From an uncultured bacterium (GTDB lineage: Bacteria; Planctomycetota; Phycisphaerae; Phycisphaerales; SM1A02), in contig CAIWCL010000294.1 in the NCBI GenBank assembly GCA_903911205.1, positions 1 through 36,933 on the forward strand: DNA of 36,933 nucleotides, given 5' to 3'. The notes under the pieces were generated by a model. That model ran no database searches. It saw only the letters and a list, made by a program, of their open reading frames with translations, and was not told where the DNA came from. This document shows, one piece after another, positions 17,287 through 36,933 of the stretch (positions are counted from its first letter, which is position 1; each line of letters begins with the position of its first letter). The translations under genes were made by a program, and so were the position numbers.

Positions 17287-19476
17287 ATGCGCATCGATCA
17301 CCACGCGTACCAGCGGGCAACGGGCGTCGCCGCCAGCGGACTTCTCGCACAAGTCGCGATTGCACTCCTGCTCCTGATCTTCGGTAAGACCACAAGCGAC
17401 TCCACGCTCGTCGTGGCGTCCGCCTGGGCCTTCTGCGGGGCGATCCCGTGGCTTGGGCTCACGATGATCTTCTACCAGCACCGTCTGGAGCGGCTCGAGA
17501 GTCTCGAACTCGACGCAGGCGCACGGGTCGACTCGGAAGGACGCATTTTCAACACCGATGAGGCGCGCGTTGCACGCAAGCGACTTGGCCTCATGCACTC
17601 GGTGCTGATGCCCATCTTGAGCGTGCTGTACGCGGTACTCCTCGTGGCGATCGGGTGGTCGATTCTTTGGTGGTTCGAGAAGGAGGGTGATCCAAACGCG
17701 GATTGGGGCACCTTCGGCACGGGCTCTGCGCTCGGTTGGCAACTCGCGGTGACGTTCGGAACGGCGCTGCTTGCCTTCATCTTCTCGCGATTCGTCGCTG
17801 GTATGGCAGTCCAAAGCGCGTGGACGAACCTGCGCGGCGGTGCGGCGGTCATGGTCGGCAACGCGCTTGTGGCGTTGGCGGTCGGAATCGGCACCGTTGT
17901 TGAACTCCTCAAAGAGGAAGGTCAATCGGACACCGTCATGCGCGGTATCGCGCAAGGGATCGCGATCTTTATGTTCGCGGTCGCGGCGGAGACGCTCCTC
18001 AACTTCGTGCTCAATCTCTACCGCCCGCGCCGCATGGGCGAGACGCCGCGACCCGCGTTTGATTCGCGCGTGTTGAGCTTGCTCGCCGCGCCTGATTCGA
18101 TCGTGCGCTCGATCAACGAAGCGGTGAACTATCAGTTCGGCTTCGACATCACGAGTTCGTGGGGCTACCAGCTGCTCTTGCGCAATTTCGCGCGGCTTCT
18201 GGCTGTGGGGCTCGTGGTTGTACTCGCGCTGACCACGCTCGTGGTCGTTCAGCCGCAGGAGCAGGGCATGCGTTTGCGCTTCGGAGCGCGCGTTGGTGAG
18301 GTCTATCAAGGCGGCGCGATGGCAAAGTTGCCGTGGCCGATTGATACGGCGATCGTCGAAGATGTCAATCTCGTGCGTGACTTATCGCTCGGGATGGTGC
18401 GTCCGTTCTCAAGTGGTGATGTCATCACGTGGGGCGACGACACGATGCAACTCACGCAGCAGACGAATGTCTTCCTCGTCGGCCTCGGCGCCGCGGAGCC
18501 GACTGCAGCGCCGGTGCTTCCCGGTGCCGTTCCGAGCATTGCACCCACGACGTCGTTTGGTGTTGCTCCTGCGACGGCTGCGGCGGATCGCAGCGCGGCG
18601 ACCGAGCAATTCGCCGTGGTCGAAGCGGACATCGTTCTCCAGTACCGCGTGCGAGACCGCGAACTCGACAAGTACATCGCGTTCTCGAACGACATCAAGA
18701 GTCGTCGCTCGGCGATGGATATGCGCGAGCGTGCACTGAAGGCCATGGCGTTGCGTGAAGTCACGCGCACGATGAGCAGTCGCACACTCGACACAGTCCT
18801 TTCACCTCCACCAGACGCACCGCTTGTCGACACGCTCGTCAAAGCGATTCAAGGCGCGTTTGACGCGGCGGAGACCGGGGTTGAAGTCGTGGGTCTTTCC
18901 ATTCCGCGGCTCCGTCCGCCCGGCACCGAGGGCGGCAAGTTCGAAGAGCTCTCCATCGCGCGGCAGAATGGTCGTCGTCAAGTGGAGGACGCGCAAAGCG
19001 CCGTCAACACGACGATGAGCATGCTCGTTGGCGATGTCGCGCTTGCGGACGAAGTCTGGAAGGGCATCGCAGAACTCACGAAACTCGAGAACGAGGCGAA
19101 GGCTGGCTCCGCCGATGCGCGGCAAAAAGCTGACGCGCTGCGTGCGCGCCTTGAGCAGATTGTGCTTGATTCGCGTGCGCAGTCGGCGAGCGTTATCTCG
19201 AACGCCCGTGCGCTCCGATGGAACCTCCTCATGGACGCGCAAGCGATTGCCGCAGAAGTCACCGGTCAGGCACCGGCGTGGAACGCCGACCCGTCGCTGT
19301 ATCGAACACGACGCACGATGGACGCGCTCGCCGAAGCGCTCTCCGGCGTGCGTGCGAAGTACATGCTGCTCCCAGATCCCTCGCGCGTCCGGATCGACGT
19401 CGAGATGCAGGAAACAAGTACCGGGCTCAACCTTGGGGACTATCTCGAGAAGAAGTCAGGTGATGGTGGCGGATAA
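17287..19476 (+). CDS. SPFH/band-7 protein with N-terminal seven-helix membrane domain
   Basis: A membrane scaffold protein of 729 residues when started at ATG 17287. About seven helices are visible (near 14-32, 43-63, 105-130, 150-172, 185-205, 222-243 and 302-322). Directly after the last comes the HflK-like start of an SPFH domain, VQPQEQGMRLRFGARVGEVY, followed by the LPWPIDTA motif. The SPFH domain and its helical extension (EDAQSAVNTTMSM, QKADALRARLEQ) run to the C-terminus, with a Pro/Ala-rich insertion at about 400-440. Usual HflK proteins have a single helix, so the seven-helix fusion is unusual. It is the first of three consecutive SPFH genes. The exact start is uncertain because the frame is open upstream. 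Confidence 0.82.
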   Translation: MRIDHHAYQRATGVAASGLLAQVAIALLLLIFGKTTSDSTLVVASAWAFCGAIPWLGLTMIFYQHRLERLESLELDAGARVDSEGRIFNTDEARVARKRLGLMHSVLMPILSVLYAVLLVAIGWSILWWFEKEGDPNADWGTFGTGSALGWQLAVTFGTALLAFIFSRFVAGMAVQSAWTNLRGGAAVMVGNALVALAVGIGTVVELLKEEGQSDTVMRGIAQGIAIFMFAVAAETLLNFVLNLYRPRRMGETPRPAFDSRVLSLLAAPDSIVRSINEAVNYQFGFDITSSWGYQLLLRNFARLLAVGLVVVLALTTLVVVQPQEQGMRLRFGARVGEVYQGGAMAKLPWPIDTAIVEDVNLVRDLSLGMVRPFSSGDVITWGDDTMQLTQQTNVFLVGLGAAEPTAAPVLPGAVPSIAPTTSFGVAPATAAADRSAATEQFAVVEADIVLQYRVRDRELDKYIAFSNDIKSRRSAMDMRERALKAMALREVTRTMSSRTLDTVLSPPPDAPLVDTLVKAIQGAFDAAETGVEVVGLSIPRLRPPGTEGGKFEELSIARQNGRRQVEDAQSAVNTTMSMLVGDVALADEVWKGIAELTKLENEAKAGSADARQKADALRARLEQIVLDSRAQSASVISNARALRWNLLMDAQAIAAEVTGQAPAWNADPSLYRTRRTMDALAEALSGVRAKYMLLPDPSRVRIDVEMQETSTGLNLGDYLEKKSGDGGG

Positions 19477-19479
19477 GGG

Positions 19480-19535
19480 CGGTGCATGAGGCCCGGTGCA
19501 TGAAGCCCGGTGCATGAAGCCCGGTGCATGAAGCC
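19480..19535. repeat. 14-bp tandem repeat after the first SPFH stop codon
   Basis: Four units: CGGTGCATGAGGCC once and CGGTGCATGAAGCC three times, then a partial fifth (CGGTGC). It begins three bases after the TAA at 19474-19476, and each unit carries ATGA. Confidence 0.92.
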
Positions 19536-19642
19536 CGGTGCGCCCGCGCGTTGTGCCCGGCTCACGACATCGCCAGGAATCAGGTGAGAACTCACGAATC
19601 GAAGAACCGCGGCATGCGCCGCGATTGACAGGAACGACAGAC

Positions 19643-28783: not shown

Positions 28784-29271
28784 ACCGCATGCAGGGTAGC
28801 GAAGGCTTGGGCGAGGTGCGTGCGATACGCATCGAGCGTCAGCGCGGCGTGAGGGCGCACAACGATGACGATGTCGTAGGTTGTTGGACGCGACTCTGGA
28901 CCGTGATCAGGACCGTGATCTGCAATCTGATCTCGGATTGAGGACGGAACCGAGCTCACGGGCGTATTCGTGGGCGTATTCGTGGGCGTATTCGTGGGCG
29001 TATTCGTGGGCGCGCCGCTCCAAGACGACGCATATTCGTGCTGTGAGAGTCGATACGCCTCACGCAAGAGTCGCTTGATGCGATTCCGAGTCACAGCGTT
29101 TCCGCAGCGACGTCCGATGGAAATTCCAAGACGGGTTTGCAGTGTCTCGCCTGGCGCGGAGTGCACAGAGAATGGACCGACTTCCGCTCGTGCGCGCGCA
29201 TCCATCACACGGCGAAATGCGCCACGGCCTGCGAGCCGCTGTGTCCGTTGAAAGGTGAGTCGATCACTCAC
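28642..29271 (-). CDS. rnpA: Ribonuclease P protein component with repeat insertion
   Basis: Protein subunit of RNase P, which matures tRNA 5' ends. It has 209 residues against the usual 110-130. Key parts: the N-terminal RLTFQRTQRLAGRGAFRRV, the RNR signature GNAVTRNRIKRLLREAYR (57-74), and the last strand YDIVIVVRP (132-140). Between signature and strand sits an insertion of about 50 residues (81-130) built around four TNTP repeats. The C-terminal 45 residues are low-complexity and overlap yidD. The start is GTG at 29271, overlapping the ClC stop as GTGA. rpmH, the usual upstream neighbour, is absent. The core is intact, so it is probably functional. Confidence 0.93.
   Translation of the reverse strand: MSDRLTFQRTQRLAGRGAFRRVMDARARAEVGPFSVHSAPGETLQTRLGISIGRRCGNAVTRNRIKRLLREAYRLSQHEYASSWSGAPTNTPTNTPTNTPTNTPVSSVPSSIRDQIADHGPDHGPESRPTTYDIVIVVRPHAALTLDAYRTHLAQAFATLHAVWTKRAQRKAADAARHAVESARAMGTANPGNPSTETNSDTPASPRGS
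28960..29007 (-). repeat. 12-bp tandem repeat inside rnpA
   Basis: Four exact units of GGGCGTATTCGT (plus-strand reading), encoding Thr-Asn-Thr-Pro four times in RnpA. The identity of the units suggests recent expansion. Confidence 0.95.
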
Positions 29272-31284: not shown

Positions 31285-31524
31285 ATGATCGAAGCACTGA
31301 AGAGCGACCACATCGTCGAAAAGCTCGGCGGCCGGTTCAAGTTGACCGCCCTCATCCAACGCCGCCTCGGTGAAATCATCGACGGTGCACGTCCACTCGT
31401 CGATCGGAACGGTCGTTCCGACCTCGAGGTGGTCATCGATGAGATCATGCAGGATAAGATCACACTCGAGATCGACCCTGAGTACATCGAGAAGATGAAG
31501 GGCACGCCGTCCCGCAAGCGTTGA
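31285..31524 (+). CDS. rpoZ: DNA-directed RNA polymerase omega subunit
   Basis: Small RNA polymerase subunit that aids beta-prime folding and assembly; 79 residues. The family pattern is visible in GGRFKLTALIQRRLGEIIDG (15-34) followed by ARPLVD and the acidic DLEVVIDEI. ATG at 31285 is preceded by GGGGAG at a spacing of eight bases, which decides against longer upstream frames. The next gene is coaC, matching the conserved rpoZ-coaBC neighbourhood of many bacteria. The stop codon is the first three bases of an 11-unit minisatellite. Confidence 0.9.
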   Translation: MIEALKSDHIVEKLGGRFKLTALIQRRLGEIIDGARPLVDRNGRSDLEVVIDEIMQDKITLEIDPEYIEKMKGTPSRKR

Positions 31525-31686
31525 GCTTCGGGGCTTTGAGCTTCGGGGCTTTGAGCTTCGGGGCTTTGAGCTTCGGGGCTTTCAACTTCGGGGCTTTCAA
31601 CTTCGGGGCTTCGAACTTCGGGGCTTTCAACTTCGGGGCTTTCAACTTCGGGGCCTGAAAACTCGGGGCCTGAAAACTCGGGGATG
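31522..31686. repeat. 15-bp tandem repeat starting at the rpoZ stop codon
   Basis: Eleven head-to-tail 15-bp units fill 31522-31686. The first four are identical TGAGCTTCGGGGCTT; later ones become TCAACTTCGGGGCTT (one CGAACT variant) and finally GAAAACTCGGGGCCT. The rpoZ TGA is the start of unit one, and with a unit of five codons the next three TGA are also in rpoZ frame. Opposite-strand frames through it give monotonous peptides and are not taken as genes. Confidence 0.97.
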
Positions 31687-36452: not shown

Positions 36453-36540
36453 GGAGAGGTGTCCGAGCGGTTGAAGGAGCTAGTCTCGAAAACTAGTAGT
36501 GGGTTCATCCTACTCGTGGGTTCGAATCCCACCCTCTCCG
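36453..36540 (+). tRNA. tRNA-Ser (anticodon CGA)
   Basis: An 88-nt type II tRNA. The acceptor stem GGAGAGG pairs with CCTCTCC, discriminator base G. The D-arm has TCC/GGA; the anticodon stem CTAGT/ACTAG encloses CTCGAAA, giving anticodon CGA for the codon UCG. A long variable arm (AGTGGG/CCTACT) is typical of serine tRNAs, and the T-arm is GTGGG-TTCGAAT-CCCAC. CCA is not encoded. An intrinsic terminator follows 12 nt later. The last 18 nt reappear downstream in a tandem repeat. Confidence 0.97.
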
Positions 36541-36933
36541 CTTCTTGAAAAACCCGCGGTCGCCTCCGGCGAGCGCGGGCTTTTTCATTTGCGGAGATGG
36601 TTGCGCCGCGCGGCTCGAAGCACTCATCTCGGCCCCCTCGGATTCAGTCCGAGGGGAGGCGGCCAGAGCGAGCGAAAGCCAAGCGAGTCGCGAGCGCGAC
36701 GATCTCGCGCGTCGTGGATCCGTGGCTTCGCCACGTCTCCGGGCTTGGACCTCGCATGCGCGAGGTAGCGAATCCCACCCTCTCCGCTTCTTGAAAAACC
36801 CGCGGTCGCCTCCGGCGAGCGCGGGCCTTTTCATTTGCGGAGATGGTTGCGCCGCGCGCGGGCGCGCGCGTCGCGGATCCGTGGCTTCGCCACGTCTCCG
36901 GGCTTGGACCTCGCATGCGCGAGGTAGCGAATC
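36523..36933 (+). repeat. Tandem repeat of tRNA-Ser 3' end, terminator and hairpins
   Basis: Unit A spans 36523-36768 (246 bp), unit B 36769-36927 (159 bp), and a third begins at 36928 where the window ends. Each begins CGAATCCCACCCTCTCCG, the 3' end of the tRNA, continues through the terminator, and ends with two hairpins: CGTGGC-TTC-GCCACG (36721-36735 in A) and ACCTCGC-ATGC-GCGAGGT (36749-36766 in A). Unit A carries an extra 87 bp with a CCCCTCGGA/TCCGAGGGG hairpin (36634-36656). Only unit A is joined to a full tRNA. Opposite-strand frames here reproduce a known false-gene peptide (GWDSNPR) and are not genes. Confidence 0.93.
36553..36585 (+). terminator. Intrinsic terminator of tRNA-Ser
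   Basis: CCCGCGGTCGCC (36553-36564) pairs with GGCGAGCGCGGG (36568-36579), with one mismatch, around TCC, followed by CTTTTT. The A-run before the stem can pair with the T-run. A second copy with CCTTTT lies near 36799-36830. Confidence 0.92.

Follow-up and report, generated by a model that had tools for sequence, protein, structure and literature searches.

The window analysed here is the whole of contig CAIWCL010000294.1 (hereafter C294; 36,933 nucleotides) of a planctomycete genome, G000, assembled as 3.87 Mb in 393 contigs. At its right-hand end lies an intact tRNA-Ser gene, which is followed, up to the contig edge, by an array of copies of its own 3′ end. The features of this array, all on the forward strand, are listed below; P′ denotes a strand complementary to the tRNA acceptor strand.

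36453–36541 (+): tRNA-Ser, anticodon CGA, intact, head of the array (ARAGORN; Rfam RF00005, 57.2 bits).
36523–36768 (+): unit 1, 246 bp; tRNA 3′ end, terminator, P′ and arms, with a dispersed repeat inserted.
36523–36612 (+): 90-nt stretch repeated in unit 2; the last 19 nt of the tRNA, the terminator, P′ and the start of arm 1.
36546–36587 (+): terminator hairpin of the tRNA with a T run (fold and sequence).
36591–36600 (+): P′ strand GCGGAGATGG, a near reverse complement of the tRNA acceptor strand, predicted to close a four-way unit.
36613–36705 (+): dispersed hairpin repeat inside unit 1 (BLAST family match at 36622–36697; outer limits from comparison with unit 2).
36716–36740 (+): arm 2 hairpin of unit 1, GGATCCGTGGCTTCGCCACGTCTCC (sequence and fold).
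36741–36776 (+): arm 3 hairpin of unit 1, continuing into the copied tRNA 3′ end (fold and arm-3 alignment).
36769–36927 (+): unit 2, 159 bp, without the inserted repeat.
36837–36846 (+): P′ strand of unit 2 (fold and sequence).
36849–36874 (+): arm 1 hairpin of unit 2 (fold).
36875–36899 (+): arm 2 hairpin of unit 2 (fold).
36900–36933 (+): arm 3 of unit 2, truncated by the contig end (sequence and fold).
36928–36933 (+): first bases of a third copy of the tRNA end; the remainder is on contig C329 at 64–155, where the array ends.

The original prediction, that the tRNA-Ser 3′ end and its terminator are repeated in tandem with spacings of 246 and then 159 bp and that a third copy begins at the window edge, is borne out. 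Positions 36523–36612 recur at 36769–36858 (90 nt, 99% identity, 246 bp from start to start), and positions 36706–36774 recur at 36865–36933 (69 nt, 99% identity, 159 bp apart), reaching the contig edge. The third copy, starting at 36928, continues on C329, the first bases of which are identical to the last 69 nt of the window. Reading on into C329, as had been proposed, reveals a third tRNA end (CGAATCCCACC-AACCTCC-GC; diverged form, CCACCAACCTCCGC) and a terminator, at which the array ends; past this terminator lie genes on the opposite strand, and no mobile gene was found on C329. The join between C294 and C329 is well supported, since in the relative G011 both flanking genes, the tRNA-Ser(CGA) gene and one unit are present on a single contig. 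Within G000, the 69-nt arm region has no match outside C294 and C329. Short tandem repeats of a different kind are found elsewhere in the window, at 31503–31682 (period 15 bp), 28960–29019 (12 bp) and 19475–19544 (14 bp).

The two spacings had been taken to reflect differing units of 246 and 159 bp. The spacings are correct, but they arise from one unit, the first copy of which contains a dispersed repeat; once the inserted stretch is removed, units 1 and 2 are nearly the same. Of the 55 matches that this region gives in G000, most are to a core at 36622–36697. We considered the dispersed repeat as a component of the unit, and dropped this model on comparison with unit 2, which is without it. 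The repeat (CATCTCGGCCCCCGAGGATTCACTCCGAGGGGAGCCGGCCAGAGCGAGCGAAAGCGAAGCGAGTCGCGAGCGCTC; window 36613–36705; L003–L030) is found genome-wide, often directly after stop codons, and also in the relatives G002, G003, G010 and G011; many contigs terminate in or close to it. Genes for Y1_Tnp (PF01797), present in G000 (C181:1697–2029) and in 12 other genomes of the genus, may partner this repeat. It has the dispersed intergenic copies of REP/RAYT-type elements, which the units behind tRNA genes (here, tRNA-tail units) do not. The latter resemble REP/BIME sequences in being palindromic non-coding repeats, and one dispersed family of this general type sits in unit 1; they differ in that they are not dispersed and are found only behind tRNA genes.

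The last 18 bases of each of the 44 tRNAs of G000 were sought downstream of the respective gene. Exact (18/18) copies of the own end are located behind tRNA-Gly(GCC) (+139), tRNA-Ser(TGA) (+128) and tRNA-Ser(CGA) (+228), whilst the remaining tRNAs with enough flank gave best scores of 13/18 or lower; the Phe, Met and Glu tRNAs had too little downstream sequence in the scan because their contigs end there. Across the 128 distinct tRNA flanks from all loci fetched, the scores are bimodal, with 110 at 13 or below and 18 at 15 or above, the latter comprising 13 units or end copies in the genus, four neighbouring tRNA-Glu genes and tyrV of Escherichia coli. Within the genus, Ser(CGA) units are present in G000, G002, G011 and G007, with a decayed form in G009; Ser(TGA) units in G000, G002, G005, G009 and G011; Gly(GCC) units in G000, G001, G003, G010 and G011, with a decayed form in G002; Glu(TTC) units in G002 and G011; and a Gly(TCC) unit in G002. 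The Gly(CCC) gene of G005 is followed by a fitting P′, arms and T-loop bases, with the acceptor copy absent, and is probably a sixth, partial, unit-bearing tRNA gene. Tandem arrays are formed by the Ser(CGA) units of the window, the Gly units of G001, the Ser(TGA) units of G005 and the Glu units of G002 and G011. In other species the same tRNA genes have empty sites, with the same genes flanking filled and empty sites; the distribution of Ser(CGA) units between species is patchy, as judged on a weak and mostly unresolved single-gene tree. All copy numbers are lower bounds, since contigs break in the arrays.

A simpler arrangement is observed behind tRNA-Gly(GCC) of G009 and G015 (L175, L176), where the T arm and acceptor strand recur on their own, armless, 66–68 bp past the tRNA; the copy in G015 has a terminator, and both are counted among the 13 above. 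These bare copies may represent a simpler stage of the same process. Several contigs stop inside a tRNA gene (Phe, Met, Glu or Ser) or immediately past it, namely C14, C350 and C208 of G000, C299 of G006, C118 of G012, and C285 and C573 of G014, which suggests further collapsed arrays. A 27-nt copy of a tRNA-Glu 3′ end with no tRNA upstream (L259; G004:C19:59475–59501) looks like an ordinary att remnant.

The units have a common order: the tRNA 3′ end (from the T loop on), a terminator hairpin, P′, arm 1, arm 2, and arm 3, which leads into the next tRNA 3′ end. Of 14 units, 11 measure 107–112 nt from P′ to the tRNA end. What different tRNA loci have in common is arm 3, consisting of AGGTCTTTACGC, a variable hairpin and GAGCGAATCCC, with 12 invariant columns in an alignment of 13 copies. 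Arms 1 and 2 have little sequence in common between loci, so that arm 3 and the layout carry most of the case for common ancestry; the Gly(TCC) and Gly(CCC) units have no close match to the arm-3 motif. Two arm-3 patterns were searched, with controls, in 181 genomes of the family and in 400 of the order (15 in the genus and 385 outside). Matches were obtained in six of the 181 (one control match) and in eight of the 400 (no control match), in each case all in the genus; none of the 385 sampled genomes outside it contained either pattern. Where matches lie inside longer contigs, they adjoin tRNA-Gly or tRNA-Ser genes. Within an array the terminators are near-identical, and distal copies are decayed.

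P′ is 67–100% paired with its own tRNA in the segments compared, and usually fits that tRNA better than others, with some cross-fit among similar acceptors. In the predicted fold, P′ and the next tRNA end close a four-way junction, such that the outline of the unit would be that of a tRNA without its anticodon. Isolated units have folding z-scores of −2.1 to −6.0, and a strict four-way fold (at least five closing pairs, exactly three branches and at most six unpaired junction bases) is adopted by 9 of 14 units, as against 1–9 of 200 shuffles (0.5–4.5%); these statistics are supporting rather than decisive, because the unit limits used for both length and fold were set by us. P′ has a second possible partner in the tRNA end that precedes it, beyond the terminator, and the two then form the limbs of a long inverted repeat. 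Behind tRNA-Ser(CGA) of G015 (L042) this inverted repeat is at its most complete, being nearly perfect and extending over the acceptor strand and some of the T stem, as well as the terminator and the downstream strand. The possibility that the unit is a decayed duplicate of a full tRNA was rejected; its ends fit, but its interior, as judged by eye, is unlike the tRNA.

The closest precedent for this arrangement is in E. coli, where the tyrT locus has 178-bp repeats holding the tRNA-Tyr 3′ end. These have been known since the late 1970s and, to our knowledge, neither their origin nor their role has a settled explanation. At the E. coli tyrV locus (NC_000913), copies matching the tRNA end at 19 of 22 positions lie at +156, +334 and +512 and are annotated as rttR; the locus, used as a positive control, gives four matches to the Rfam family RtT (RF00391). 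In the RtT model the strand GGGAAGGAU pairs with the tRNA end AUCCUUCCC, and the E. coli units have a P′-to-end length of 111–112 nt with three branches in the predicted fold. An additional covarying pair has been reported for RtT (PMC7657543), and the copy number of rtT varies between Salmonella strains, for which a 175 bp VNTR is listed (PMC2658671).

The planctomycete units share with these repeats a tandem layout behind a tRNA gene, in which every unit finishes with a copy of the upstream tRNA's 3′ end, together with a closing stem in which P′ pairs with that end, and a P′-to-end length that is similar (107–112 nt in 11 of 14, compared with 111–112 nt). They differ in the sequences of their arms, in having a clear hairpin terminator inside each unit, and in occurring behind six tRNA genes (one partial) in the genus, compared with one (Tyr) at the E. 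coli locus checked. No match to RF00391 (gathering score 45 bits) was obtained, even at E ≤ 5, in the window or seven other unit-bearing loci, and for this reason we do not file the units as RtT members. In the same eight loci only tRNA exceeded the Rfam cut-offs, with weak matches (sX4, plastid families) mostly overlapping the tRNA itself. We consider it probable (about 0.62) that the planctomycete units are tRNA-tail repeat units of the tyrT/RtT kind. By analogy they may work like RtT, with no claim made to membership of that family.

One alternative explanation is that the tRNA 3′ end and terminator were simply duplicated in tandem on the spot, with the hairpins as a by-product of G+C-rich intergenic sequence. 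The window array is indeed short, ends on C329 with no mobile gene there, and has an arm region confined to C294 and C329 in its own genome, and armless copies exist in G009 and G015. However, the same layout is present behind at least five tRNA genes, different loci have arm-3 sequence in common, P′ fits each tRNA, and the folds are rarer in shuffled sequences. We therefore regard local duplication by itself as unlikely, and a one-off event, which had been put forward as the favoured reading if the array stopped just past the window with neither similar units elsewhere nor a mobile gene, is too weak a description: the array does stop there and has no mobile gene, but similar units exist behind other tRNA genes. 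That the array is an artefact of assembly is hardly credible: the data are metagenomic and contigs do break inside the array, but arrays or units occur inside individual contigs, in MAGs that come from separate projects, and E. coli tyrV has the same layout in a finished genome. It is also conceivable, if rather doubtful, that the unit is a selected, transcribed tRNA-like RNA (a mimic or decoy) and not a passive repeat. Retention of the four-way fold while the stem sequences change, the fit of P′ to each host tRNA and the annotation of E. coli RtT as a small RNA are consistent with selection; the position of the units behind terminators, their patchy occurrence between species and the failure of 5 of 14 units to adopt the strict fold are evidence against it.

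Two further explanations invoke mobility. The T loop, where the copies begin, is a known crossover zone for tRNA-targeting integrases, and the units, like the partial tRNA copies described at attR sites (PMC9897764), are partial direct repeats of a tRNA 3′ end starting in that loop. In contrast to attR remnants, the units are small, tandem and of constant length, and the duplicated stretch takes in the terminator; the intervals from tRNA to copy in the window array, 159–246 bp per unit, contain no island, and no integrase is seen. The same genes lie beside filled and empty sites, and a recombinase acting at the T loop is an unlikely agent of insertion, as exchange between two different tRNAs would leave the recipient with the wrong acceptor strand. 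The proposal that the copies are att-like scars of tRNA-targeted integrative elements is thus not supported, and we consider it quite improbable; collections of phage and viral sequences gave no match. Alternatively, the units could be non-autonomous elements that an integron-type recombinase, or else a Y1 transposase, mobilises in folded single-stranded form. Their imperfect hairpins and tandem arrays, and the constant base and variable tip of arm 3, resemble the design of integron attC sites (a resemblance only), and Y1_Tnp genes are present in 13 of the 16 genomes of the genus. Unlike attC sites, the units have tRNA-specific ends and are without cassette genes, and none of the 16 genomes has an integron integrase (TIGR02249) above cut-off, the one partial match (137 bits) being in G006. 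The confinement of the units to tRNA genes, and the absence of a PF01797 match from the unit-bearing G009 and G011 (both incomplete assemblies), likewise argue against movement of this kind, which appears very improbable.

The tRNA-tail reading is best accommodated by duplication in place, which is well supported. The direct repeats (90 nt in the window) would allow arrays to gain and lose units by slippage or unequal recombination, and the same events would keep the copies alike; since only the first tRNA end is needed, distal copies would be free to decay. Because arm 3 is common to several loci, the unit has presumably been copied, at least occasionally, from one tRNA gene to another. Of the readings originally offered, a structured repeat family spreading by duplication is the best supported, with units behind several tRNA genes, in several species, and a common arm 3; its spread between tRNA genes is the part that we infer. 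A weaker inference concerns a role like that proposed for RtT, in which read-through would yield a structured 3′ trailer or a reinforced terminator. On this analogy the units may act as trailer RNAs or tRNA mimics; the terminator ahead of each unit speaks against strong transcription, and units located behind such apparent terminators are possibly not transcribed.

We suggest, tentatively, that these loci are a second, independent occurrence of RtT-type units, behind six or more tRNA genes of one planctomycete genus and with a closing stem fitted to each host tRNA. If so, tRNA-tail units would form a recurrent class of structured elements derived from tRNAs, perhaps transcribed as tRNA mimics, and would not be an oddity of E. 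coli. Such units would also account for several of these MAG contigs being broken at tRNA 3′ ends. A tyrT-like layout in a distant phylum, behind several tRNA genes and with filled and empty sites in relatives, provides natural replicates for studying the birth of such units, their arrival at further tRNA genes and any selection acting on them.
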